Origin: Pseudodesulfovibrio sp.
Lineage (GTDB): Bacteria; Desulfobacterota; Desulfovibrionia; Desulfovibrionales; Desulfovibrionaceae
Length of the DNA: 64,000 nt
Direction: 5' to 3'
NCBI GenBank assembly: GCA_016342345.1
Contig: JAEINO010000007.1
Span: forward strand, 1-64,000
Part shown: positions 21,721-35,745 of the stretch, piece after piece
Layout of the letters: each line of letters opens with the position of its first letter
How positions within the stretch are numbered: position 1 is the first letter of the stretch
Program-made: the position numbers and the translations under genes
Notes under the pieces: generated by a model
The model's input: the letters and a program-made list of their open reading frames with translations, nothing else
What the model was told of the DNA's origin: nothing
The model's database searches: none

Positions 21721-22377
21721 CTAATGTGTGCCGCTGATTTTGCCATTTTCAAGATGAATGATCTGGTCGCATGCTGCATTCAACCATGCCATGTCGTGGC
21801 TGGCGATGACAAGGCTTGCTCCATATTCTTTTCGCGCTGCGAGGGCGGCTTGTCGGATCATGGTGGCGCTCTGTCCGTCCAGGCTGGCAGTGGGTTCGTC
21901 CATCAGAAGCACTTTGGGCCTGAGCACCAAACGGGCGGCAAGTGCAACTCGTTGGGATTCTCCGCCGGAGAGCTCGAACCATTGTCGGCAGGAAAACTTG
22001 TCGGGCGGAAGGCCAACCAGTTCAAGAGCATGATTGACCTTTGCCATGATGTCGGATTCTCCGCGAACCTTGAGTCCGTATGCAACATTTGCATGCACGC
22101 TTCGTTTGAGGAGGTAAGGCTCCTGAACAAGTAGCGTGATCTGTCTGTGTATCTGGTTGGATTTGCAGGAAGCCGGATTGCCCATGAATGTCAGCGTGCC
22201 TGATGCCGGGGCTTCCAAAAAGGCAAGAAGTCGAAGCAACGTGGATTTTCCTGATCCATTTGGGCCTGCGAGTCCGATGATGCTGCCCGGTTCGATGTCG
22301 AGTCGATCGACCGCAAGCACGGTGCGCTCGGAATATCTTTGACGAACATTGTAAAGAGAGATGATCGGCGTGTTCAT
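21721..22377 (-). CDS. tupC: Tungstate ABC transporter, ATP-binding protein
   Basis: The ATPase of the TupABC tungstate importer, 218 residues. It has Walker A GPNGSGKST near 38-46, the ABC signature LSGGESQRVALAARL, Walker B VLLMDEPTASLD and the switch histidine in ASHDMAWL. There is no C-terminal TOBE-type regulatory domain, unlike ModC, and the length is correspondingly short. Its start overlaps the tupB stop by four bases. Confidence 0.93.
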   Translation of the reverse strand: MNTPIISLYNVRQRYSERTVLAVDRLDIEPGSIIGLAGPNGSGKSTLLRLLAFLEAPASGTLTFMGNPASCKSNQIHRQITLLVQEPYLLKRSVHANVAYGLKVRGESDIMAKVNHALELVGLPPDKFSCRQWFELSGGESQRVALAARLVLRPKVLLMDEPTASLDGQSATMIRQAALAARKEYGASLVIASHDMAWLNAACDQIIHLENGKISGTH

Positions 22378-23069
22378 TTGATGGCCTTTTTCTTCAGGCC
22401 TGAGGCAAGTATGTTGACTGTCAGCGCAACGGCCAGCAGGACCATGCCCAGCGCAATGCCCATGGCGAACTCGCCTTTGCCGGTTTCAAGGGCAATGGCT
22501 GTGGTGATTGTCCGGGTGTGCCATTTGATGTTGCCGCCAACCATCATGGAAATGCCGACCTCGGAAACGATTCGTCCATATGCGGCAACAGCGGCGAGCA
22601 TGATTGAATATCGCGCTTCAAGGACAGTGGCCCAGAGAATTTGCCGCTGGTTGGCTCCCAGGGTGATCAGGGTCATGGGCAGTCGTTTGTCCAGAGCTTC
22701 CACGGCAGTGGCGGTCATGGCGATTATGATGGGCAGCCCGAGTATTGTCTGGCCCATGGCTATGCCCGGAATGGAAAAAAGCAGCCCTGTGCCACCCAGG
22801 GGGCCGTGCCGGGTGAGCAGCGCATACACGAGCAGGCCGATGACCACGGTTGGGAAGGAGAGCAGTGTGTCCACAATGGTGCGGAGGATTTTTTTGCCTG
22901 GAAATATTTTGTAGCCGAGCAGAAAGCCCAGCGGAATACCGATGGTGAGACTGCCTATCATGGACAGCGTCGAAGCTCCGACCGTGGTCCAGATTGCTGA
23001 ATACGTTTCAGAATTTCCGGTGAAAAGGAGCACGAAGCCGTGCAGGAACCCTTGTAGAAGAAAGTCCAT
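22374..23069 (-). CDS. tupB: Tungstate ABC transporter, permease
   Basis: The membrane subunit of the tungstate importer, 231 residues with five to six predicted helices. The EAA-type loop lies near residues 160-185 (VEALDKRLPMTLITLGANQ), where the ATPase docks. I take ATG 23069, giving MDFLLQGF; the frame also opens at GTG 23105 but the ribosome-binding site is too close there. It lies between the substrate-binding and ATPase genes in the usual A-B-C order. Confidence 0.92.
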   Translation of the reverse strand: MDFLLQGFLHGFVLLFTGNSETYSAIWTTVGASTLSMIGSLTIGIPLGFLLGYKIFPGKKILRTIVDTLLSFPTVVIGLLVYALLTRHGPLGGTGLLFSIPGIAMGQTILGLPIIIAMTATAVEALDKRLPMTLITLGANQRQILWATVLEARYSIMLAAVAAYGRIVSEVGISMMVGGNIKWHTRTITTAIALETGKGEFAMGIALGMVLLAVALTVNILASGLKKKAIK

Positions 23070-23131
23070 CTGTGTCTCTTTGTACCGGGAGGATGCGTGA
23101 GTCACCCTCCCGGCAAGTCAATGTGATTGGT

Positions 23132-23956
23132 CTATTGTGCGTTGGGAATGAAAAGTTTCTTCCCAAGGAGCTTGAATTCGCCGATGGCTTTCTGGGTGGC
23201 CGGAGATGCCATCCATGCTATGTACTGCTTTGCCATATCATACTGTGCGTCTTTGCAATGACCTGTGTTTACGGCCAGCGCACTGTACTGGTTGAACAGA
23301 ACCTTGTCGCCTTCGACCAGGACTTTCAGCGGCGGGTTGCCACCCTTGGTGTCGGCATATTTGATGTAAGTGCCCCGGTCCGTCATGGTGTAGCCATTTT
23401 TCTCGGAGGCAATGGTGATGGTGGCAATCATGCCTTGTCCGGTCTGCACGTACCATGCACTCTTTTCAGGTACAGACAGGCCAGCGGATTTCCACAAGGA
23501 GAGTTCTTTTTTGTGGGTGCCGGAGTTGTCTCCACGGCTGGCAAAGACTGCCTGCTTGGCCTGGATGGTCTTGAGGGCGTCCGTGACAGTCATGCCCTTG
23601 ACTCCTGCAGGGTCGGATTCCGGACCGATGATGATGAAATCGTTGTACATGAGCTGTGTGCGGTCGGTCAGGACTCCCTTGTCCACGTAGACCTTTTCGG
23701 CTCCTGGTGCATGGACCAGAACGACATCAACATCACAGTTCTCGGCCATTTTGAGAGCCTTGCCTGTGCCGACAGCCACGAATTTGATTTCAATGCCAGT
23801 GTCCTTCAGGAACATGGGAACAATCAGTTCATCGAGCAGTCCGGTGTTGGCAGTACTGGTTGTTGTTGCCATCATCAGGGTTTGTCCTGCAGAGGCAGGG
23901 AGCACCAATGCGAGTGCGAGTACGAGTGATAAAGCAAATCCATAAAGACGATTCAT
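23132..23956 (-). CDS. tupA: Tungstate-binding periplasmic protein
   Basis: The 274-residue solute-binding component. A signal peptide ending near ASAG (residues 1-24) is followed by MATTTSTANTGLLDEL, the TTTS motif that marks TupA over ModA. The rest is a two-lobe periplasmic binding fold, with the SRGDNSGTH loop near 163-171. Tungstate selectivity supports the nearby tungsten-dependent aldehyde oxidoreductase. It is the first transporter gene after the ModE-type regulator, 57 bases downstream of it. Confidence 0.95.
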   Translation of the reverse strand: MNRLYGFALSLVLALALVLPASAGQTLMMATTTSTANTGLLDELIVPMFLKDTGIEIKFVAVGTGKALKMAENCDVDVVLVHAPGAEKVYVDKGVLTDRTQLMYNDFIIIGPESDPAGVKGMTVTDALKTIQAKQAVFASRGDNSGTHKKELSLWKSAGLSVPEKSAWYVQTGQGMIATITIASEKNGYTMTDRGTYIKYADTKGGNPPLKVLVEGDKVLFNQYSALAVNTGHCKDAQYDMAKQYIAWMASPATQKAIGEFKLLGKKLFIPNAQ

Positions 23957-23987
23957 GGTTTTCTCCTCAAGTGTGGTTATGGGTTAT

Positions 23988-24005
23988 TCAGACCATGGAG
24001 TCTGA
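23988..24005 (-). promoter_or_regulatory. Inverted repeat in front of tupA, possible regulator site
   Basis: TCAGAC-CATGGA-GTCTGA is a perfect 6-6-6 inverted repeat in the 57-base gap between the regulator stop and the tupA start. Its position fits an operator for the adjacent ModE-type protein, but it may equally be a weak transcript hairpin. Confidence 0.4.
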
Positions 24006-24013
24006 TTGGTTGG

Positions 24014-24400
24014 CTATTCAGTGTCGTCGCGATAGAATTCACCGGATTTTTTGACGTCCAGATCAAGAAGTTCGGAAGCTCTGGTTGTGGCGTAGTTCTC
24101 GACGTCGAGATAGAAATGAAGGAATTTCTCCATGAGTTCCTTGCCTGTGGGGGAGAGGTTGAAACGTTGGCCCTGTCCTTTGGTTTTTTCGACCAATGCC
24201 TGACCGAGGCGTTTTTCGGCATTTTTCAATTTTCCCCATGCGCGGCGATAGGACATTCCCAGAGCTTCAGCTGCTTTCCGCAGGGAGCCAAGCTCTTCAA
24301 TGTGCTGCAATAGCAAGGTACTGCCGATGCCTATGTAGGTTTCATTGTCCTGTTCAATCCAGACCCGGAGTCTGAGTGTGGCTTTTTCTTTTTCGGCCAT
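24014..24400 (-). CDS. ModE-type (LysR-like helix-turn-helix) regulator, probable tungstate response
   Basis: A 128-residue protein made almost wholly of the ModE N-terminal winged helix: LLQHIEELGSLRKAAEALGMSYRRAWGKLKNAEKRLG is the typical helix-turn-helix run (given here as the region of residues 29-65). No molbindin (TOBE) oxyanion-binding domain follows; the tail is acidic and helical. In standard ModE the TOBE pair senses molybdate, so sensing here is unexplained. It heads the tup operon, which argues that it controls tungstate uptake. Confidence 0.85.
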   Translation of the reverse strand: MAEKEKATLRLRVWIEQDNETYIGIGSTLLLQHIEELGSLRKAAEALGMSYRRAWGKLKNAEKRLGQALVEKTKGQGQRFNLSPTGKELMEKFLHFYLDVENYATTRASELLDLDVKKSGEFYRDDTE

Positions 24401-24445
24401 GGCACTTCACTTTTTTGGGGTTGAATGGAGTCGTGTCCAGATTGA

Positions 24446-24476
24446 ATTATATGCAATACGGGAAGTGTTAAGTCAA
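24446..24476 (-). promoter_or_regulatory. Promoter for the regulator and tup operon
   Basis: On the minus strand TTGACT (24471-24476) and a perfect TATAAT (24446-24451) are separated by 19 bases, about 45 bases ahead of the regulator start. The spacer is longer than ideal. The -10 overlaps the short repeat ATTG...CAAT (24441-24457). Confidence 0.5.
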
Positions 24477-24519
24477 TGGAGACACAATGCCTGAGGTTTC
24501 GACACCAGAATGTGGCGGG

Positions 24520-25359
24520 CTAGATGGAAACTGTATCAAAGGTCAGTGATTTCAGATCTATTACGAACATGTTTCCTGCAAGAGTGGAATGATTGCCAGT
24601 GAGTATCTTTATTGTTTCGGTCGCCATGACCGAGGCAATGAAAGTGACCGCTGCGGCTGGACAGCCAAGGATTTCCTCGACTGCATTGTCGTGGCCCATG
24701 ATGTCGGCAGGACCGGATTGGCCCGGCATGACTACGCCGACATACCCTGTCCAACCAGCCAGGGCTCCTGTCACAAGAGGAATGTTGGCCTTGGCTGCGG
24801 CCTGTTGCACTGCCAATCTGGTTTCGAGGCCACCGAGGGCATCGACGACCACATCACAACCGGTTAGGAAGTCCTGGAAATTCGGCTGTTTCAGATATTG
24901 GTTCCAGGCTTCGATTTTCATGGAAGAATTGACCAGACTGCCTCTTTCAAGGGCTGCCTCGGACTTTGGGCAATCAATGTTGCCGAGAGTGGAGAGGGCT
25001 TGGCGATTGAGGTTGGTTTCCTCGAAATCGTCGTCATCGGCAGTTCTGATTCGGCCTATGCCTGTCCGAATGAAAATTTCAAGAAGGCTCCCACCCAATC
25101 CGCCAAGGCCGACCTGGGCAATGGAAGATTCGAGCAGCCTGATCTGGTCGTTTTTCGTGATTCCATCCATGTTCCGAAGGTATCGGGTTGGATAGACATC
25201 ATTTCTCAGTGCTTCTGCCTCAACGATGTAGCCAGGAATAGCGTGTTCTCTGGCTATGGTGGCGATGGCATCAAGTGAAATGGTCTCACCTTCGTCTCCC
25301 TTGGGGAGAACTATGTGAACAGCTTGATTGCGGATGGCTTCAATAAGAGGGGTAGTCAA
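24520..25359 (-). CDS. HesA/MoeB/ThiF-family adenylyltransferase
   Basis: An E1-like enzyme that should adenylate the C-terminal glycine of a MoaD/ThiS protein so that sulfur can be attached. The 279 residues hold an N-terminal extension of about 55, then the typical RYLRNMDGI segment, the nucleotide loop VGLGGLGG near 83-90, DDDDFEETNLNRQ (ATP-binding Asp and Arg) and a DALGG strand in place of DCTDN. The two CxxC zinc pairs of E. coli MoeB are absent. moaD lies two bases upstream, so the two are clearly partners; with aor beside them the purpose is the tungsten pterin cofactor. Confidence 0.88.
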   Translation of the reverse strand: MTTPLIEAIRNQAVHIVLPKGDEGETISLDAIATIAREHAIPGYIVEAEALRNDVYPTRYLRNMDGITKNDQIRLLESSIAQVGLGGLGGSLLEIFIRTGIGRIRTADDDDFEETNLNRQALSTLGNIDCPKSEAALERGSLVNSSMKIEAWNQYLKQPNFQDFLTGCDVVVDALGGLETRLAVQQAAAKANIPLVTGALAGWTGYVGVVMPGQSGPADIMGHDNAVEEILGCPAAAVTFIASVMATETIKILTGNHSTLAGNMFVIDLKSLTFDTVSI

Positions 25360-25361
25360 GC

Positions 25362-25589
25362 CTAGCCTCCACCTACAGCCGGGAAAAGGCCGATCCTGTC
25401 GCCATTCTTGATGTCACTTTCCAGATAGGCGCGTGCGGAATTGATGAAAAAGAGAGCGACTTCCTTTTCTGGAATGCCGAGCTTGGCAAGCAACGATTTG
25501 ATGGTTTCCCCCTGATCAATGGGGTAGTCGTCGCCGTTTGGCGGCAGGAACTGGGCCAGTGTGGCAAAGCATTTGATTTCGATTCCCAT
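25362..25589 (-). CDS. moaD: MoaD/ThiS-family sulfur carrier protein
   Basis: A 75-residue ubiquitin-like protein ending in GGG; MoaD and ThiS end in GG, which is adenylated and thiocarboxylated. The beta-grasp core is visible, with FFINSARAYLESDIKNGDRIGLFPAVGGG matching the family's C-terminal half (last 29 residues). It likely donates sulfur for the pterin dithiolene used by AOR. There is no ribosome-binding site, and a promoter-like sequence ends almost at the start codon. The adenylyltransferase gene follows immediately. Confidence 0.9.
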   Translation of the reverse strand: MGIEIKCFATLAQFLPPNGDDYPIDQGETIKSLLAKLGIPEKEVALFFINSARAYLESDIKNGDRIGLFPAVGGG

Positions 25590-25595
25590 GGGATG

Positions 25596-25624
25596 AATCT
25601 AGCCATTCGCGGTTGATGGGTCAA
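25596..25624 (-). promoter_or_regulatory. Promoter-like sequence directly in front of moaD
   Basis: On the minus strand TTGACC and TAGATT are separated by 17 bases. The predicted transcript start falls at or within a base or two of the moaD ATG (25589), implying a leaderless message. It lies between the aor terminator and moaD. Confidence 0.4.
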
Positions 25625-25630
25625 CGGAAG

Positions 25631-25663
25631 AAAAAAAGGGCCGAGGTTGAAACCCCGGCCCTT
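25631..25663 (-). terminator. Rho-independent terminator after aor
   Basis: Reading the minus strand, AAGGGCCGGGGTT and AACCTCGGCCCTT pair with one mismatch over a two-base loop and run into seven T. It lies 22 bases past the aor stop and separates aor from moaD. Confidence 0.9.
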
Positions 25664-25685
25664 GTCTTTGCTTGAACTGTCGGTC

Positions 25686-27413
25686 CTAGACCTTGGCTCC
25701 CTGGAGTTCGTCTTCATCGATGTCCCAGACAACGTTGTGGGGTGGCAATTTGTCGGTTTCGAAGAAACGCGGCAGCTTGTCGTCATATTTGGTGAATCCA
25801 GCGCGCTCATTGAAGAGCTGTTCATCCTTCATGCAGTTGATGCCCAGATTGATCAGATCATCGGTGGAGAAGGGTTTGCCGGTGTATGCGGCAACGAGGT
25901 CGGCCATGGCCTGTACTCCGTTTTCCGCATCCAGAACCGCAAAGGCCACAAACAGGCAGAAGCCCATGGAGTCGATAGCGGCAGTTGCAATCTGGAGATT
26001 CTTGGACAGTTCGATGTTGCCTTCCTTCTTGAGGCCGTCAACATCGCCGCCGACTTTCAGAATGTTCTGAGCGACAGCGTAACCGGCGGTGTGGTCGGCA
26101 CCCATGGCAGTGGTGGCGTAGGTAACGCCAACGCCCTTGACCGCGCGGGGGTCGTAAGCCGGCATGGACTGGCCCTTGACAGTAGGCAGACGGTCAACGC
26201 CGAATGCTCCACCAGCGAAATCAACACCGTTGCCAAGGATCATGCCCATGGGATCACCGCTGCCGACTTTGGAAACCAGTTCGATTGCGGCTTCTCCGTC
26301 ACCCCAGGGGATGATGCCGCCGTCCATTGCTATGGCGATGGCGTTGCCGATTTCAATTGTGTCCATACCTTTTTCATCACAGATTCGATCAAGCCTTGCT
26401 ATCTGATCGATGTCCTTGATCATGGCGTTGGCACCGAAAGCCCAGATTGTTTCATACTCGAAACCGGAAGTAAGGTATTCGCCGTTGGCATCATTGTACT
26501 GCTGTGAGCATTGAATGACACAGCCAGTATGACAGCCTTCCTTGACCTTGCCGCTGCGTGCTTCGATGTTCTCGGCGATTTTTTCGCCGGAGATGTCTGC
26601 GGCATGGTCGATCTGGCCCAGTCGGAAGTTTTTGCCAGGCATTGCTCCGGCTTCGTTGACGAGGTTCACGAGTATGGCTGTGCCGAAACCGGGCAGACCC
26701 TGGCCTGTGACCGGATGTCCTGTCAGGATATCAACCCATGTTTTGCGGGCGGTCTTGAATGTTTCGGCGTCAGCAGGTTCGACCTTGTTGTTCACGGCGG
26801 AATCAAGAATGATAGCCTTGATCTTCTTGGAACCCATGACAGCACCAGTGCCGCCGCGACCTGCGGAACGGGCGGGGCGTTTGTACGGGTCTGTGAACTG
26901 GATGGTGGCTGTCTTGCGGACGGTCTCACCAGCAGGGCCGATCAGGCCAGCAATCATCTTGTCGCCATATTCAGCCAGCAGTTTGTCGTGGGCCGGATAG
27001 TTGTCCATGCCGACGATGTCGCTTGCATCCCTGAATTCGACCTTGTTGTCGGAAATGAAGAGTGTGGAGAAGGGAGCCTCGTCAGCGGGTTTGTCTTCAA
27101 GGATAATGGCCAGAAGGTCCATCTTGGGCATTTTGTGTGCGAACAGGCCGCCGGAGTTGGACTCCTTGATGCCGCCAGTGAGCGGAGACTTGGTGCCCAC
27201 GGATAAACGTCCTGAGTTGGCTGCGGTAGAACCTCCCAAAATACCTGTGGCGAAGATCAGTTTGTTCTCGGCCGACAGCGGATGGCAATCTGCCGGTACT
27301 TCCTTGTTGATGACGCGGGATGTTAGTGCCCGGCCACCAAGATTGACGTAAGGTCCGACATCTTCGAAGTTATACTCTTTGGTGCGAGTGTTGATTCTGA
27401 GAATTTTAGGCAT
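25686..27413 (-). CDS. aor: Tungsten-containing aldehyde:ferredoxin oxidoreductase
   Basis: It oxidises aldehydes to acids, or runs in reverse, passing electrons to ferredoxin at a tungsten bis-pterin and a [4Fe-4S] cluster. The 575 residues include the N-terminal GGRALTSR pterin domain, a GRGGTGAVMGSK motif near 185-196, cluster ligands CHTGCVIQC near 289-297 and a fourth cysteine near 486 (MGFCLFV). The pterin motifs DTIEIGNA and DHTAGYA are also present. There is no signal peptide, so it is cytoplasmic. tupABC, moaD and the MoeB-like gene downstream on the same strand fit tungsten enzyme assembly. Confidence 0.95.
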   Translation of the reverse strand: MPKILRINTRTKEYNFEDVGPYVNLGGRALTSRVINKEVPADCHPLSAENKLIFATGILGGSTAANSGRLSVGTKSPLTGGIKESNSGGLFAHKMPKMDLLAIILEDKPADEAPFSTLFISDNKVEFRDASDIVGMDNYPAHDKLLAEYGDKMIAGLIGPAGETVRKTATIQFTDPYKRPARSAGRGGTGAVMGSKKIKAIILDSAVNNKVEPADAETFKTARKTWVDILTGHPVTGQGLPGFGTAILVNLVNEAGAMPGKNFRLGQIDHAADISGEKIAENIEARSGKVKEGCHTGCVIQCSQQYNDANGEYLTSGFEYETIWAFGANAMIKDIDQIARLDRICDEKGMDTIEIGNAIAIAMDGGIIPWGDGEAAIELVSKVGSGDPMGMILGNGVDFAGGAFGVDRLPTVKGQSMPAYDPRAVKGVGVTYATTAMGADHTAGYAVAQNILKVGGDVDGLKKEGNIELSKNLQIATAAIDSMGFCLFVAFAVLDAENGVQAMADLVAAYTGKPFSTDDLINLGINCMKDEQLFNERAGFTKYDDKLPRFFETDKLPPHNVVWDIDEDELQGAKV

Positions 27414-28839: not shown

Positions 28840-30945
28840 TTATTGGTTTTTGGCACAATCCCCGCTCAGACATTCCTGATTTTCAGAACCATCCCGATTG
28901 TAGCAGGTCAGACCGCATCTCAGGCATCTGCATGTCTCGTGTTTTGCTTCTTCCTCGTTCAAAGCCCCTTCGATTTCCTTGAAGGTGCAGACGCGTTCGT
29001 TGCATTCAGTCAGGTGTGGAATTTTTGATCGCGCGCGAATCCCTACATCGGGAACATCCGTAAACATGGTGTACGGGATCATGTCCCGTTGCAATTTGTG
29101 CGAGACGTGCGGCGTGCCTTCGTTGATGTATTGGTGAATAGAACGGGCTGCCTTCCTGCCTTCGCCAAGGGCGGTGATCACAAGGGCAGGACCGGTATGC
29201 ATGTCCCCACCTGTGAAGACATTGGGCATTGCGGTCTGGAGAGTGTCAGGGTGGGCACCTAGTGTACGCCACTTGGTTTCTTCCAGGGTGCAGGCACCGG
29301 ATTCGTCATACAGGCAGGACAGTTCTGGTTTCTGGCCGATGGCGGTATAGATGTTGTCAACTTCCAGAATTTTTTCCGAACCCTGGATGGGCATGGGTTT
29401 GCGTCTGCCCGAGGCATCCGGTTCGCCCAGTTTCATCTGGATGTATTCGATATGGGTGACCTTCCTGGATTCGTCGGCAATGATTCTGGTTGGTGAAGCC
29501 AGGTAGAGAAAATTGACATTTTCTTCTTCTGCAGCAACGATTTCCTCTTTGTTGGCGGGCATTTCATCTCTGGTGCGGCGGTACATGAGCGTGACGTCTG
29601 CGCCAAGGCGGACGCTGGTGCGTGCCGCGTCGATTGCAGTGTTGCCGCCACCGATAACGACAACTTTTTTGCCGGTTCCGGTTTCAACGCCGAGACCTAT
29701 CTTGGTCAGGAATTCGGTTCCGGTTTCAACGCCAATGCTGTCCTCGTTGTCGATGCGAAGGTTCATGTTCATCCATGCACCGATTCCGAGGAATACGGCT
29801 TCAAATCCATCTTTAGTCAGGGAATTGAGGTCGAAATCCTTGCCGAAGAATTTTTCATGTTCCACGTCGATGCCGAGATTCAGGATGCCTTCTATTTCCC
29901 AATCCAGGACATTCTTGGGCAACCTGTATTCAGGGATACCGTATCTGAGTTGTCCGCCCAGTTTGGGCATGGATTCGAAAATGGTCGGACTGTGGCCCAG
30001 ACGGCGAAGAAAGTAGGCACAGGACAATCCGGCGGGGCCACCTCCGACAACGGCGACCTTGCGGCCTGTGTCTGGTGCGCAGGAGATGGGCAGCCGTTGA
30101 CCCGAGTTCATTTCCCAGTCAGCCACGAAACGCTTGACCATGTTGATGCCCACGGGTTCGTCTACGTGACCACGACGGCAGACCCCTTCGCAGGGGTGCG
30201 GGCAGATGCGGCCAATGGAGAGCGGCATGGGAATGCGTTCGCGGATGGTTCCCAGTGCTCCGGCATAATCGCCGCGAGATGCCTGTTCTATGTAACGGGG
30301 AATGTTGATTTCTCCGGGACAGCGTTGGCGACAGGGAGCAAGGCAATCCGTGGTTTCATTGAGGTGCATGATGCGTGCGGACATGCCCCAAATGGTAATG
30401 ACGCCGCGAGGGCATACCTGGGCGCAGCCACCACAGGCGGTGCAGAGCTCGGGGTTGACTACGGGGTAGCCGTTGGGTCCCATTTCAATGGCACCGAACT
30501 GGCAGGCACCGACGCAGGTACCGAAACCCAGGCATCCTTCGGGACACAGTTTGGAGCCGTTGTACAAAAGGTGTTGCGCTCTGCAATCCTTTGCACCTTC
30601 ATAAATGTATACATCTTCGGCGCGGCTGCCGCCGGTGCAGTCCACAAAAGCGAATTGTTTTTCCATGGAAGAAAATTCAAGTCCCATGATTGTTGCCACG
30701 TTTGCGGCAACTTCGTCTCCGCCAATGACGCAGACCGTGGCCCCGGCTTTGCCTTCGACAACACCCTGGGCTGCTCCGGCGCATCCTGGATAGCCGCAAC
30801 CGCCGCAGTTGGCTCCGGCCAGTACGCTTTCAACCTGTGCAATGCGAGGGTCTTCATAAACATATAGCATCTTGGATGCCACGGCCAGGATGATGGCTGC
30901 CGTGAGTCCAATGCCGAAAAGGACGAGTACCGATGCTGTGATCAT
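28840..30945 (-). CDS. rnfB: RnfB fused to a GltD-like NAD(P)/FAD oxidoreductase
   Basis: RnfB relays electrons from ferredoxin into the Rnf membrane complex. This 701-residue form has an N-terminal membrane anchor (1-25), the RnfB four-cysteine cluster ANCGGCGYPGC at 45-55 and a later C, and two [4Fe-4S] motifs (CLGFGTCVGAC and CTACGGCAQVCP) to about residue 190. Then comes a complete GltD-like unit: DCLAPCRQRCP Fe-S domain, FAD loop VVGGGPAGLSCAY near 300, NAD(P) loop VIGGGNTAIDAAR near 430, GGDMHTGP and a cysteine-rich tail (CRCLRCGLTC). Normal RnfB is under 300 residues. Start ATG 30945 follows TAGGAG. It ends the rnf operon. Confidence 0.93.
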   Translation of the reverse strand: MITASVLVLFGIGLTAAIILAVASKMLYVYEDPRIAQVESVLAGANCGGCGYPGCAGAAQGVVEGKAGATVCVIGGDEVAANVATIMGLEFSSMEKQFAFVDCTGGSRAEDVYIYEGAKDCRAQHLLYNGSKLCPEGCLGFGTCVGACQFGAIEMGPNGYPVVNPELCTACGGCAQVCPRGVITIWGMSARIMHLNETTDCLAPCRQRCPGEINIPRYIEQASRGDYAGALGTIRERIPMPLSIGRICPHPCEGVCRRGHVDEPVGINMVKRFVADWEMNSGQRLPISCAPDTGRKVAVVGGGPAGLSCAYFLRRLGHSPTIFESMPKLGGQLRYGIPEYRLPKNVLDWEIEGILNLGIDVEHEKFFGKDFDLNSLTKDGFEAVFLGIGAWMNMNLRIDNEDSIGVETGTEFLTKIGLGVETGTGKKVVVIGGGNTAIDAARTSVRLGADVTLMYRRTRDEMPANKEEIVAAEEENVNFLYLASPTRIIADESRKVTHIEYIQMKLGEPDASGRRKPMPIQGSEKILEVDNIYTAIGQKPELSCLYDESGACTLEETKWRTLGAHPDTLQTAMPNVFTGGDMHTGPALVITALGEGRKAARSIHQYINEGTPHVSHKLQRDMIPYTMFTDVPDVGIRARSKIPHLTECNERVCTFKEIEGALNEEEAKHETCRCLRCGLTCYNRDGSENQECLSGDCAKNQ

Positions 30946-32227: not shown

Positions 32228-32806
32228 CTAAGACTCCCAGGCTGTGGGGAGTTTGTCCTTGATTTGGTTGAATATGTTTACGGCTTCGTTGACCGCACTC
32301 ACGGTGCCGGTAGATGATATGGTTGCCCCGGAAATGGCTGCTATGTTGCCGCCCTGTTTCTTGAGTGCGATCTTGTCCGTAGAATGGCCTGAAAACTGAT
32401 CACGGAATTCCGGTTCTACTACGCGTGCGCCCAGACCGGGAGTTTCCTTCAGGGTTGTGATGCCGATGCCTTCGAGTTTGCTGCCGTCCGTGACAAAGCC
32501 GACCATGACGCCGATGTTGCCGCCATACCCTTTGCCAAAGGTTTCAAAGGCTACGCCGGTGAGTTTGCCGTCCTTCATGGCCGGGAAGACTGTGATCGGG
32601 CCGCTAGGCAGATCAAATGTCTTGCGATCCTTGACCGGGTTGTTGTCGTAATTGCTGAATATCTGTTTAAGGGACGGGCCTTGAACGTAGGTCATAACCT
32701 GTTCTTCAATGCGTTCGCTGGTGGCTTGGCGCACTGTGGCTAGTGTTAGGCCTGACAGACCGCAAATCAGGGAGAGGACGAAGATCATCTTCAGCATTTC
32801 TCGCAT
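32228..32806 (-). CDS. rnfG: Rnf electron transport complex subunit G
   Basis: The periplasm-facing flavoprotein subunit of 192 residues. One N-terminal membrane helix (about 5-25) is followed by an FMN-binding domain; the covalent FMN threonine sits in SGATISST near residue 167. ETPGLGARVVEPEFRDQF is another family motif. ATG 32806 follows GAGGAGGGCG; the frame is open further upstream but only as an overlap with rnfD. It overlaps the rnfD end by 16 bases. Confidence 0.93.
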   Translation of the reverse strand: MREMLKMIFVLSLICGLSGLTLATVRQATSERIEEQVMTYVQGPSLKQIFSNYDNNPVKDRKTFDLPSGPITVFPAMKDGKLTGVAFETFGKGYGGNIGVMVGFVTDGSKLEGIGITTLKETPGLGARVVEPEFRDQFSGHSTDKIALKKQGGNIAAISGATISSTGTVSAVNEAVNIFNQIKDKLPTAWES

Positions 32807-33789
32807 GTTGCGCCCTCCTCGTCTTTGGAAGAATATGAGAACGGGCCGCCAAATGGTTTGGGGCGTATGCGGTCCAGCAGCGGAGTGAACAGATTGGTCA
32901 GTAATATGGCGAACGGTACACCGTCCGGGTAGATGCCGTATACACGGATGATGATGACCATGGTTCCGGCAATGAGTCCGAACAGGAGGCAGGGAATGAG
33001 TCCGATGGGCGACGATGCTGAATCGGTGGCAAGGAAAAAGGCTCCGAAGATCGTGCCACCTGCCAGGAGGTGGAACATGGGTGGAGCATATGTGGTTGGA
33101 TCGATCAGTTGATATATCCAGGTCGTGATCAAAATGCCTGCGATGAATCCGGTGGGGATTTCCCATCTGACGTGGCGGCGAATGAGCAGGAATGCGCCAC
33201 CGAGGAGCAGGGCTATCACCTGGACTTCGCCGAGTCCGCCGAGTTGTTCGCCTATGAGCAGTGTTGATGATTGAATGGATTGGATGGAATCAAGACCGAA
33301 ATATTTCAATTGCTGCAACGGGGCCGGGAGGTTGGATGACAGCATGGTTGCATTGGTGTCCATGACTGTACCCCAGGAAATGCGGCAGACTGCCCAGCCG
33401 ACAACAGGGGCGCAGAGCGGACTGGCTCCCAGTCCTCCGAAGATCATTTTTCCGAGGATAATGCTTGATGCTGCGCCAACGGTTACCAGCCACCACGGGG
33501 CAGAGGCTGGAAGCAGGAAGGAGAAGAGCAACCCCGTGAGCAGTCCGCTGAAGTCGTCGATGGATTGCTTTCTTCCCATGATTTTGTTGCAGATGGCCTC
33601 GGTGGTTACGGCTACGGCACAAGAAAGGGCCATGACCCTTAATGCGCCCATGCCGAACATGTAGGTTGCCATGAGTGCGGCAGGCATAAGTGCCGCAATG
33701 GTTTCAATCATGTAGCCTTTTATCGTCCGACCGCAATGAACGTGGGGGGGGACGGATACTGTCAGTATCGGTTCAAGCGGTTTATTCAT
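32791..33789 (-). CDS. rnfD: Rnf electron transport complex subunit D
   Basis: A 332-residue membrane subunit homologous to NqrB, with about nine to ten helices. It carries the SVPPHVHCGRTI N-terminus and KMIFGGLGASP. The covalent FMN site, usually SGAT in this family, reads here DTNATML near residue 145, keeping the threonine but changing both residues before it. PDGVPFAILLTNLFTPLLD near the C-terminus is canonical. It overlaps rnfC by four bases and rnfG by 16. Confidence 0.93.
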   Translation of the reverse strand: MNKPLEPILTVSVPPHVHCGRTIKGYMIETIAALMPAALMATYMFGMGALRVMALSCAVAVTTEAICNKIMGRKQSIDDFSGLLTGLLFSFLLPASAPWWLVTVGAASSIILGKMIFGGLGASPLCAPVVGWAVCRISWGTVMDTNATMLSSNLPAPLQQLKYFGLDSIQSIQSSTLLIGEQLGGLGEVQVIALLLGGAFLLIRRHVRWEIPTGFIAGILITTWIYQLIDPTTYAPPMFHLLAGGTIFGAFFLATDSASSPIGLIPCLLFGLIAGTMVIIIRVYGIYPDGVPFAILLTNLFTPLLDRIRPKPFGGPFSYSSKDEEGATCEKC

Positions 33790-34988
33790 TCTTTTTCTCC
33801 GGCTTGTCCGGTTTCAGCTTGTACAATCATGTCTGAAGGGGTTTCGTCTTTTCTGAGCAGGGCGAGTTCGTACTTGGCAAGTCGGATATATTGCAGAAGC
33901 GGACGTTGTGCCTTGCACCAATAGCCGCAGATGCCACACTCGATGCAGGAGTGGATATGGAAATCCTCGGCTCGTTTGAACTGCTTGAATTCGGCACATC
34001 GGCTGATCATGCCGGGCATGATGCGAGCCGGGCAATGGCGTTCACATTCACCACACCCCAGGCAAAAATTGTCAGTTGTTTTGAGGCTTTCGTCCTTGCG
34101 GAGAATCTGGAGTCCTGTGGTGTCCTTGCCCACACCTTGCTCCAGATTGATGGCGGTCAGGCCGCGCATTGGTCCCCCCATCACGATTCTGTCGCCGGGT
34201 TGGACCGTGGCTCCGGCCTGTTCAGCCAGAAAGCCGACAGGCGTGCCAACGCGAATCAGATAGTTCCGGTTTCCGATGGTCATGATTGTTTCGGTCAGGG
34301 GTCGACCTGTTTCCATGATTCGTCCGATGAAATACAAATCCGAGACAGAGAGAATGACGGTGTCATCTGGGGGGGCATCGGGCAGCACTTCCTGACCCGT
34401 GACGGCTTTGATGACCATTTCATCGATGCCGTTGGGGTAAGTGGGCGCAACGTGCATGACCGTGCAATTGGCAAATGCATTGGCTCGGTTGCCCTTGGCT
34501 GCCACCAGGAACATCTTGGATGGCTTTACGATGCGTTGGACTGTTTCCAGTCCCAATTCCAGGGTTTTGCGGTAATCACGGAGTAGCGGGTCATAGATGG
34601 AAATGCCCGGCTCAGGCGGGACTGCGTTGATGATCAGGATCGGTGCCTTGTCAATGTTCTTGACTTGGGCACCCATGTCGCGGAGCCACTCCTTGAGGGG
34701 AGCCCCATCCGCGGAAGGTGCTTTTTTTGTCTTGGCCCTGTCCTTGCCATTGACTTTGATAAGCATGGAGTAGGGGAGGATGTCCTGGATTATTCCTGCC
34801 ATTGGTGCATGCATGTCGCCACTGCCATCGTGGTTGGCAATGGCAATTTTTGTCCCGACCAGTACCTGGTCGCCCTCGGAGAGAATCGGGGTATGGCAGG
34901 GGATGGGGATGCGCAATCGATCCGGCTCGGAACCCTTTTCCAGGGGGCCGGTTTCACCGGTTTGCAGGCTGAAACTGAACGTGGTCAT
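33786..34988 (-). CDS. rnfC: Rnf electron transport complex subunit C
   Basis: The soluble NADH-binding subunit of 400 residues. A biotin-carboxyl-carrier-like N-terminal region (HAPMAGIIQDI) precedes the NADH/FMN NuoF-like core (residues about 110-300, with QRIVKPSKMFL and a PYPNG-like APTYPNGIDEM). Two [4Fe-4S] motifs close it: CLGCGECERHCP near 308-319 and CIECGICGYWC near 347-357. It is the first true rnf gene, 13 bases after the decaheme cytochrome. Confidence 0.94.
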   Translation of the reverse strand: MTTFSFSLQTGETGPLEKGSEPDRLRIPIPCHTPILSEGDQVLVGTKIAIANHDGSGDMHAPMAGIIQDILPYSMLIKVNGKDRAKTKKAPSADGAPLKEWLRDMGAQVKNIDKAPILIINAVPPEPGISIYDPLLRDYRKTLELGLETVQRIVKPSKMFLVAAKGNRANAFANCTVMHVAPTYPNGIDEMVIKAVTGQEVLPDAPPDDTVILSVSDLYFIGRIMETGRPLTETIMTIGNRNYLIRVGTPVGFLAEQAGATVQPGDRIVMGGPMRGLTAINLEQGVGKDTTGLQILRKDESLKTTDNFCLGCGECERHCPARIMPGMISRCAEFKQFKRAEDFHIHSCIECGICGYWCKAQRPLLQYIRLAKYELALLRKDETPSDMIVQAETGQAGEKE

Positions 34989-35001: not shown

Positions 35002-35745
35002 CTATTTCATGTGGCATTGATAGCAGGCATCGTCACCGAATGGTCCTTTGCCTTGTTTCTCATGGCAACTCATGCACTGGCCGTGAAAAGCATTCGTGGT
35101 CGTTGGAACAATAATATCCACAGGCTCGGCATGGCAGTTTGCGCAGGATTGTGTTTCCGGCTCACTGGTCGAAGCTGAGTCGTGGGTGTGGCAATTGCCG
35201 CATCCTTTGGTGCCTTCGTCGTACATGTCTTCATGACAATCGGCACATCTGGCATGATTGGCCTTTTTCAGGCTTAACATGTCCGTGGTGCCATTTTTTT
35301 TGTGACAATTGGAGCAGGCTTGTGGTTCTGGTTCGATCTCTGCCTCATGGTGGCAGGCCTGACAGTCGTCTTCCGCGTATTCTGTTTGATGTTTATCATG
35401 AGAGAATTTGGCGATGCTTGCTTCCTGGTGGTGACAGGAAATGCAATATTTCTCTTTGATACTCTCTTGATGATCTGCCACGAAAACTTCGTCGAATTTT
35501 TTGGCGTGGCAGCTGGTACATGCCGGGGGTGTCTGGTCGTTACCTGATGTATGATGGCAGGTAACGCAGTCCTGTTCTTCGCGTTCGGCATGTGATGCAT
35601 GGGTAAAAATGATGTTTCCGCCCTTGTTGTCGAGGAGAATGCGCGTTGGCGGGACCTCGGAACTTGCTGGTGCAAGGTAGCCTACAAGAGCTGTCACGAA
35701 TAAAATTCCGGTCAATATGGAGATGGTGAAATATTGTCTTTGCAA
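35002..35745 (-). CDS. Decaheme c-type cytochrome of the rnf operon
   Basis: A 247-residue periplasmic cytochrome with ten CxxCH heme sites (CVTCH, CTSCH, CISCH, CQACH, CSNCH, CADCH, CGNCH, CANCH, CMSCH, CYQCH) and extra histidines for bis-His ligation. An uncleaved or cleavable N-terminal helix (about 8-25) targets it across the membrane. In Desulfovibrio such multiheme genes head rnf clusters and are proposed to link Rnf with the periplasmic cytochrome pool. It starts with TTG 35745 after AGAGGT. Confidence 0.94.
   Translation of the reverse strand: MQRQYFTISILTGILFVTALVGYLAPASSEVPPTRILLDNKGGNIIFTHASHAEREEQDCVTCHHTSGNDQTPPACTSCHAKKFDEVFVADHQESIKEKYCISCHHQEASIAKFSHDKHQTEYAEDDCQACHHEAEIEPEPQACSNCHKKNGTTDMLSLKKANHARCADCHEDMYDEGTKGCGNCHTHDSASTSEPETQSCANCHAEPVDIIVPTTTNAFHGQCMSCHEKQGKGPFGDDACYQCHMK

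Follow-up and report, generated by a model that had tools for sequence, protein, structure and literature searches.

A fused RnfB and a reduced RnfC in the rnf operon of a Pseudodesulfovibrio genome: an Rnf2-type complex in the Desulfovibrionaceae

In the Rnf complex of A. woodii, ferredoxin donates its electrons at RnfB, and flavin mononucleotide (FMN) and NADH are located on RnfC (PMC11889175). A different type of Rnf has been described for D. toluolica Tol2 and D. multivorans, in which RnfB is about 700 aa long and contains NAD-binding sites, RnfC has neither NADH-dehydrogenase nor SLBB domains, and the electron acceptor is given as still to be identified (PMC5109826). This type (Tol2-type Rnf, or Rnf2) belongs to the core of the Desulfobacteraceae and is reported to be formed abundantly and constitutively in six Desulfobacteraceae strains; the same paper names the Desulfovibrionaceae under Rnf1 (PMC11887813). 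Here, we analyzed a stretch of 64,000 nucleotides from Pseudodesulfovibrio sp. (Desulfovibrionaceae; assembly GCA_016342345.1, contig JAEINO010000007.1, positions 1 to 64,000), further referred to as the window, with an rnf operon in which rnfB is fused to a flavoprotein module with flavin adenine dinucleotide (FAD) and NAD(P) domains. The complex encoded there is a member of the Rnf2 type already in print for Desulfobacteraceae, with which it shares the RnfB of about 700 aa, the reduced RnfC and the presence of a cytochrome in the cluster. It differs by its cytochrome (10 hemes in the window, 15 kDa in the described type) and by its host family.

Parts of this architecture have been touched upon for the Desulfovibrionaceae before. 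A 2024 paper reads the operon of this family as one in which rnfB was lost and an FAD-dependent oxidoreductase took its position (PMC11434368); the gene read there as a replacement is, in the window, RnfB fused to such an oxidoreductase. A link between cytochrome c, NAD(P)H and ferredoxin was hypothesized earlier for the D. gigas operon (PMC4287179), and D. vulgaris has an RnfB of 30.9 kDa, thus of the short kind, next to an RnfC of 43.5 kDa (PMC10920352). The main text of a 2025 Rnf review (PMC12174285) contains no mention of “Desulfo”, NADPH or a fusion.

The original prediction, made from the sequence of the window, described an RnfB front with membrane anchor and Fe-S clusters that continues into a GltD-like flavoprotein with a cysteine-rich tail. 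The fusion is real. It is encoded by a single stop-free frame on the minus strand, from the ATG at 30945 to the stop codon at 28840, with AGGAG a few bases upstream of this start and the stop codon of rnfA about 10 bases upstream of it. The protein of 701 aa contains FeS, Fer4_20 and Pyr_redox_2 domains, all above the Pfam cut-offs, and several types of Fer4 at residues 136-184, where some overlapping models stay below them (Table 1). The PF04060-type cluster of A. woodii RnfB passes electrons to RnfA/E (PMC11889175). Among 105 distinct fused proteins, 14 cysteines of the RnfB part and five of the GltD part (19 in all) are invariant, as is the FAD motif GxG..G (105/105), and the tail cysteines C674, C677 and C681 are retained in 104. 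A distance of 27 positions separates C178, the last cysteine of RnfB, from the invariant C205 of the GltD part. The solved RnfB chains 7zc6_B and 9eri_B match residues ~6-192 of the fusion. An AlphaFold model of the whole protein has a mean predicted local distance difference test (pLDDT) score of 62.6, with residues 94-142, 178-236, 244-273 and 616-701 below 50.

Residues ~192-682 match chains of NfnABC, StnABC and NfnL. A fold search with the model found 9bov_A (Z 36.7, root-mean-square deviation (rmsd) 4.0, 403 residues aligned), 8oh5_C (Z 34.7, rmsd 4.5, 405 aligned) and 5jfc_L (Z 34.4, rmsd 4.3, 396 aligned). The closest solved relatives of the module are thus the NADP-module subunits of NfnABC/StnABC, together with NfnL, rather than GltD; the kinship with NfnABC/StnABC had been overlooked in the original prediction. 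The GltD-like subunits of NfnABC/StnABC (9bov_A, 9n5u_A, 8oh5_C) are 38-43% identical to the fusion over the aligned module, and 9n5u_A and 9bov_A end in an RCxxCG tail resembling that of the window protein. Unlike them, the fusion has a membrane anchor and an RnfB front, and the window operon contains none of the NuoE/NuoF-like genes that are their partners. NfnL (NfnB) and GltD have the Fer4_20, FAD and NADP domains in common with the fusion. The genome's own NfnB carries EADRCLQC at its N-terminus, before the Fer4_20 cysteines; the fusion has no such motif there, its Fer4_20 match omits the first positions of the profile, and RCLRCG is found at its C-terminus instead. The tail cysteines perhaps take over the ligand role that the N-terminal RCLxC has in NfnB, and may complete the first Fer4_20 cluster. 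The curated GltD profiles are not reached (TIGR01318, 304 of 483 bits; TIGR01316, 361 of 472 bits), and these cut-offs, the gene context and the ligand layout together rule out that the fusion is GltD or NfnB proper.

The window protein also has a GGGN...YRR loop in common with the NfnL chain of 5jca, an entry titled as NADP(H) bound. Basic side chains behind the second beta strand (YRR...R) would bind the 2'-phosphate of NADP(H), and the window module may prefer NADP(H) over NAD(H). The layout, with the given spacing of C178 and C205, suggests the direct FAD/Fe-S path from NAD(P)H to the RnfB clusters that had been predicted. YRR is present in 78 of the 105 fused proteins. The 27 copies without it are all paralogs, namely nine from Desulfovibrionaceae (e.g., L197 and L200) and 18 loci of the group with about 40% identity (L097-L114).

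The second peculiarity of the operon is its RnfC. The second half of the protein aligns with solved canonical RnfC only from residue ~116 onward; the preceding glycine-rich loop is absent, and NAVPPEPG occupies the site of the canonical NGAECEPY. No SLBB domain was found by Pfam, and PF01512 leaves a weak remnant below cut-off (positions 27-135 only, the first 26 being absent), which agrees with the Tol2-type RnfC. Canonical RnfC controls have PF01512 from its start and SLBB in 13 of 13 cases. We take the loop to be FMN-binding from the name of PF01512 (Nuo51 FMN-binding domain) and from the location of FMN and NADH on the RnfC of A. woodii (PMC11889175). In its AlphaFold model (mean pLDDT 82.2), the window RnfC adopts the RnfC fold (8rbm_C, Z 33.5, rmsd 4.4, 383 aligned), followed by NqrA (8acy_A, Z 26.3, rmsd 5.3, 357 aligned). 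The window thus shares with the canonical complexes of A. woodii, C. tetanomorphum and A. vinelandii the core with its conserved cysteines, the RnfB front and the RnfC fold, but its RnfC is without FMN loop and SLBB domain and its RnfB ends in the FAD-NAD(P) module. With no recognizable FMN loop in RnfC, a point missing from the original prediction, the complex cannot be regarded as a standard Rnf that gained one more input.

This loss was followed over 132 RnfC rows, the loop being counted where 6 of 7 key positions agreed. The loci were picked non-randomly from search tables; L136-L139 (no rnfD near), RnfC frames above 520 aa (L196, a read-through into RnfD) and matches below 40 bits were dropped beforehand. 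The loop was found in 0/61 rows whose locus has a fused RnfB (where the pairs L074/L195 and L172/L200 each appear to be one contig counted twice and L106 has its RnfC on the strand opposite to the fused gene), in 34/58 rows with a short RnfB (including L131, which is cut by a contig end) and in 2/13 rows without RnfB in the locus. For the ECEP motif the counts are 0/61, 33/58 and 2/13, and for the two [4Fe-4S] motifs 60/61, 57/58 and 13/13, respectively. In all eight compared genomes with both kinds of rnf cluster, the loop is found only in the RnfC beside the short RnfB. In genome G355, the canonical and the fused cluster lie at 3.10 and 3.11 Mb, in line with an earlier report (PMC5109826). 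The loop is also missing in all 12 sampled Desulfovibrionaceae loci with an unfused RnfB (L221-L232) and in seven further unfused loci (L125-L130, L141). Pfam gave SLBB in 0/13 fused-type and 0/12 unfused Desulfovibrionaceae RnfC, and PF01512 (E ≤ 0.001) in 6/13 and 6/12, respectively, and in 13/13 canonical ones. The loss of the loop is therefore older than the fusion or independent of it, which weakens the idea that RnfC lost its FMN because RnfB gained the module.

The fusion is widespread. Querying 288 Desulfovibrionaceae genomes with residues 1-192 of the fusion (E ≤ 1e-15) retrieved RnfB in 150 of them, and judged from open-frame length 70 of these 150, from 14 genera, carry a fused RnfB among the matches listed. 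This check across the family, proposed along with the original prediction, extends an architecture to Desulfovibrionaceae that has been assigned to Desulfobacteraceae (PMC11887813). Unfused frames of 270-348 aa were seen among the matches listed in 21 of the 80 other RnfB-bearing genomes. All 36 analyzed genomes of the window's genus have fused-length frames, with the copy of G022 split over two contigs. Of 395 genomes sampled from the phylum, at least 42, not counting the window's own and scoring the best two matches per genome, have a near-full-length match, 29 of them at 49-56% identity and a further 13 at just 36-43%. End-to-end alignments of the fusion were obtained with 17 named records (44-86% identity). 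Named records with the fusion include Pseudodesulfovibrio, Salidesulfovibrio, Desulfatitalea, CSSED10-310, Thermoanaerobaculales and SAR324; the nearest named relatives by RnfB are Pseudodesulfovibrio metagenome-assembled genomes (82-86%). A few matches elsewhere show one stop codon, some at the very end. Because of the frames in 36/36 genomes of the genus and the 17 end-to-end records, we exclude chance or, as raised with the original prediction, a mis-joined assembly.

In six genomes (G234, G572, G442, G400, G423 and G235), no rnfC, rnfD or rnfG was found beside the fused gene within ~9 kb upstream and 2-3 kb downstream; their rnf cluster lies elsewhere and has no rnfB beside it. G424 resembles these six, its rnf cluster running into a contig end. 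A fused rnfB away from the rnf cluster would fit the report on D. phosphitoxidans, for which only rnfCDGEA and a cytochrome c gene were identified (PMC4046663). At two loci of these genomes (L233 of G234 and L234 of G572), a GltD-like gene of 467 aa and a neighbor of 279-331 aa directly follow rnfA, possibly representing NfnAB inside an rnf operon.

In a tree of RnfA, RnfD and RnfE, all entered loci with a degenerate RnfC form one branch, with the exception of L132, L133, L142 and L143 (support by the Shimodaira-Hasegawa-like approximate likelihood-ratio test (SH-aLRT), 100 with 99 rows; FastTree support, 1.0 with 126 rows). These four loci group with canonical cores and contain a second group of RnfC proteins without the glycine loop, with TEFE where the canonical protein has AECE, perhaps an independent loss of the FMN loop. 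In the RnfB tree, the fusions are united in a single branch (SH-aLRT 90 when 37 of the 88 fused rows are retained). When all 88 fused rows are entered, this branch has a support of 0.952 and the truncated L131 is the lone unfused row inside it. The fusion branch adjoins the unfused degenerate group (98), and the RnfB proteins of unfused Desulfovibrionaceae group with five canonical ones (98). The trees suggest that Desulfovibrio swapped the fused RnfB for a short one from a canonical Rnf, with the alternative, a union of the unfused Desulfovibrionaceae RnfB with the fused ones of the family, not rejected by the approximately unbiased test (p 0.119).

The cytochrome gene follows the same division. 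After setting aside loci too close to a contig end, a multiheme cytochrome lies at most 1.5 kb upstream of rnfC in 73/91 evaluable loci with a degenerate RnfC (fused 48/57, unfused 17/24, rnfB-less 8/10) versus 0/35 canonical ones. Within 600 bases the numbers are 57/90 (fused 39/57, unfused 11/23, rnfB-less 7/10) versus 0/35.

Based on gene content, motifs, fold, conservation and distribution, from which we infer a donor, an acceptor, a direction and an ion, the window Rnf probably runs on other electron carriers than the textbook complex. Our best explanation, to which we give roughly even chances, is an Rnf2 complex with an ordinary core and an RnfC without FMN/NADH loop, in which the NADP(H):FAD:Fe-S module of RnfB serves as port. 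RnfA/D/E/G carry the motifs known from ordinary Rnf complexes, and the pump core would be unchanged. NADP(H), and perhaps still ferredoxin, would exchange electrons with the RnfB clusters, and these would then travel via RnfA/E, RnfG and RnfD as in other Rnf complexes. They would leave (or, in reverse, enter) at the RnfC clusters towards a cytoplasmic partner, or on the periplasmic side towards a c-type cytochrome, and NAD+ at RnfC would not be the exit. A parallel may be seen in the Na+-translocating NADH:quinone oxidoreductase (Na+-NQR), where NqrF took over the NADH input and NqrA lost its cofactors (PMC11889175, PMC12174285): NADP(H) would have the role at RnfB that NADH has at NqrF. Both systems would have a pyridine-nucleotide flavoprotein as input and an RnfC homologue (NqrA in Na+-NQR) without flavin, but NqrF is a reductase of the ferredoxin-NADP+ reductase type (PMC12174285) and the window RnfC retains its cluster motifs.

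Several points weigh against this explanation. Unfused relatives manage without the GltD module, and the conservation of the RnfC clusters speaks against a purely periplasmic exit. The 27 fused proteins without YRR include paralogs flanked by rnf genes, so that the constant feature of the module is FAD/Fe-S and not always NADP(H). Outside the FAD domain the AlphaFold model of the fused protein is of low quality, hence contacts between the domains are not derivable from it. In D. alaskensis G20, the cytochrome gene dhcA is mostly dispensable under conditions where rnf is needed (PMC4215793). A published primer for this strain matched none of the 288 genomes, and its RnfB may be of either type. 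A measured activity for this Rnf architecture was not found in the literature searched.

Strain G20 mutated in rnf shows the behavior predicted if Rnf runs forward and generates proton-motive force (PMC4215793, PMC4841214), which suggests forward pumping in this relative. These mutants would also fit the strongest alternative, in which the complex is still a ferredoxin:NAD(P)+ oxidoreductase and the GltD module, held at RnfB by the fusion, binds to RnfC, picks up the electrons of its clusters and reduces NADP+ in place of the lost FMN site. The retention of both RnfC clusters (60/61) and the adjacency of RnfB and RnfC in the A. woodii complex agree with such a relocated port, but the nearest Fe-S centers of these two subunits are more than 30 Å apart there (PMC11889175). 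In addition, the module is covalently placed next to the RnfB dicluster, i.e., at the input side, and the loop is missing also where RnfB has no module (12/12 unfused Desulfovibrionaceae loci; L125-L130 and L141). We consider this alternative unlikely, though the most credible of those compared with the NADP(H) port at RnfB.

Less probable still is a side reaction, with the module acting as an uncoupled ferredoxin:NADP+ reductase on RnfB that balances NADPH, and Rnf pumping by another route. Ferredoxin does donate at RnfB (PMC11889175) and the module resembles NADP-linked units, but the window genome has a separate NfnAB, and the link between module and RnfB has persisted along a single tree branch, also in the six genomes with a remote fused gene. 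That electrons bifurcate at the module's FAD, as considered in the original prediction, appears quite improbable. The nearest solved relatives do belong to bifurcating complexes, and at the paralogous locus L109 NuoE/NuoF-like genes lie directly upstream, with L104 and L111 sharing its NuoF-like BLAST cluster. However, neither the fused protein nor the window operon contains an NfnA-type second flavoprotein, and the operon is devoid of NuoE/NuoF-like genes; bifurcation by the fused protein alone is therefore not borne out. The bifurcating flavin of NfnABC/Stn, moreover, presumably sits in the NuoF-like subunit. The last alternative, that the Rnf is an ordinary one whose fusion is ornamental or decaying, or that the assembly is mis-joined, has paralogs elsewhere without the NADP motif and the few matches with a stop codon in its favor and nothing from the window's copy, for which it is refuted by the full-length frames in 36/36 genomes of the genus and the conserved Fe-S and FAD motifs of the 105 fused proteins, leaving it a negligible probability.

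Extending the NADP(H) port at RnfB to the wider group, the Rnf of the Desulfovibrionaceae and of many Desulfobacterota may not be a ferredoxin:NAD+ oxidoreductase. In one old lineage the NADH site of RnfC would have disappeared. In some of its members, the window genome among them, RnfB would have become the entry point for NADP(H), and the result would be an ion pump driven by NADPH (or reducing NADP+) that parallels NQR; unfused members, with an RnfB in the size class of D. vulgaris, would share the loss, and a side branch beside NuoEF-like genes would be a membrane-anchored relative of the bifurcating NfnABC. We put this forward tentatively, the odds being somewhat against its being right in all its parts. 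If RnfC cannot bind NADH in this family, ferredoxin:NAD+ drawings of Rnf are wrong for much of the Desulfovibrionaceae and Desulfobacterota, and with the loss shared by unfused members the standard energy schemes of Desulfovibrio would need redrawing. The role of NAD(P)H in sulfate reducers has been called a long-standing mystery (PMC4215793), and Rnf2 touches the open question of how NAD(P)H, ferredoxin and ion pumping are linked in these bacteria. The abundance of Rnf2 in Desulfobacteraceae (PMC11887813) gives it a bearing on marine carbon and sulfur cycling. The fused architecture was known before in related bacteria; for the loop loss in unfused Desulfovibrionaceae no precedent was found, that is, no statement that their RnfC lack the FMN loop turned up in the literature searched.

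The window operon has the order cytochrome, rnfC, rnfD, rnfG, rnfE, rnfA and fused rnfB, with all six Rnf subunit genes in one operon (Table 1).

Table 1. Location of the rnf genes and of the domains of the fused RnfB in the window
Feature	Position	Strand	Basis or remarks
rnfB fused to GltD/NfnL-type FAD-NAD(P) module	28840..30945	-	701 aa; domains and relatives
Membrane anchor helix, residues 1-26	30868..30945	-	AlphaFold helix 2-26 and hydrophobic sequence
FeS domain PF04060, residues 42-73	30727..30822	-	C47, C50, C55, C72 in 105/105 fused proteins
Ferredoxin-like dicluster, residues 134-180	30406..30546	-	C134, C138, C144, C148, C168, C171, C174, C178 in 105/105
Fer4_20, residues 201-281, without the first 26 positions of the profile	30103..30345	-	C205, C209, C248, C252, C256 in 105/105
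FAD and NAD(P) domains, Pyr_redox_2, residues 296-596	29158..30060	-	Pfam; fold match 9bov_A, 9n5v_A, 8oh5_C, 5jfc_L
NADP(H)-type loop GGGNTAID...YRRTRDEMPA, residues 432-465	29551..29652	-	Common to 5jca_L
Tail cysteines C672, C674, C677, C681 (CRCLRCGLTC)	28903..28938	-	105-protein alignment; similar tail in 9n5u_A, 9bov_A
rnfA, 191 aa	30956..31531	-	C25, C113 of membrane [2Fe-2S] cluster kept
rnfE, 225 aa	31541..32218	-	C26, C109 kept; extra C-terminal CxxCxxC
rnfG, SGATIS motif	32228..32806	-	Start codon inferred from longer frame
rnfD, 332 aa, ATDSASSP motif	32791..33789	-	
rnfC, 400 aa, without FMN loop and SLBB, both [4Fe-4S] motifs retained	33786..34988	-	
c-type cytochrome, 10 CxxCH motifs, signal-like N-terminus	35002..35745	-	

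Across 126 rows, the membrane-cluster cysteines C25 and C113 of RnfA and C26 of RnfE are present throughout (126/126), and C109 of RnfE in 119/126. In seven canonical-type operons (L117, L118, L121, L152, L154, L157, L158) alanine stands at the expected second [2Fe-2S] cysteine of RnfE. The RnfE of the window terminates in HDCKSCGMCATKPGM, and a similar CxxCxxC-like tail was found by pattern in 37 of the 126 RnfE rows, 26/60 of the fused type, 11/22 unfused degenerate, 0/9 rnfB-less and 0/35 canonical. All 37 come from loci of the window's family or from records named Desulfovibrio, Pseudodesulfovibrio or Salidesulfovibrio. The tail is possibly an extra metal or Fe-S site.

A genome search retrieved one RnfC and one RnfB matched from its start; the NfnAB-like pair (L002, 504-2799) and an ApbE gene are encoded away from rnf. 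Adjoining the rnf operon, the region 21721-27413 (minus strand) encodes an aldehyde ferredoxin oxidoreductase (AOR), which could feed ferredoxin to Rnf, and, as read from the translations, a tungstate-type ATP-binding cassette transporter, a ModE-like regulator and a ThiF-like gene. AOR pieces flank rnfB also in L010, L011, L013 and L014.

Two further arrangements were seen among the relatives of the fused gene. At L109 (1435-6949), the RnfB-flavoprotein paralog without YRR is followed by an RseC-like gene, as assigned with hidden Markov models like the upstream NuoE/NuoF-like genes; seven loci were labeled as combining a fusion with Nuo-like genes, of which L109 was checked in this way and L104 and L111 by BLAST clustering. 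Such loci perhaps encode a membrane-anchored relative of NfnABC/Stn. At L094-L096, proteins of about 600 aa consist of the RnfB dicluster and the GltD module without the anchor, and those of L094 and L096 come after genes that cluster by BLAST with an L078 gene named succinate-CoA ligase beta.

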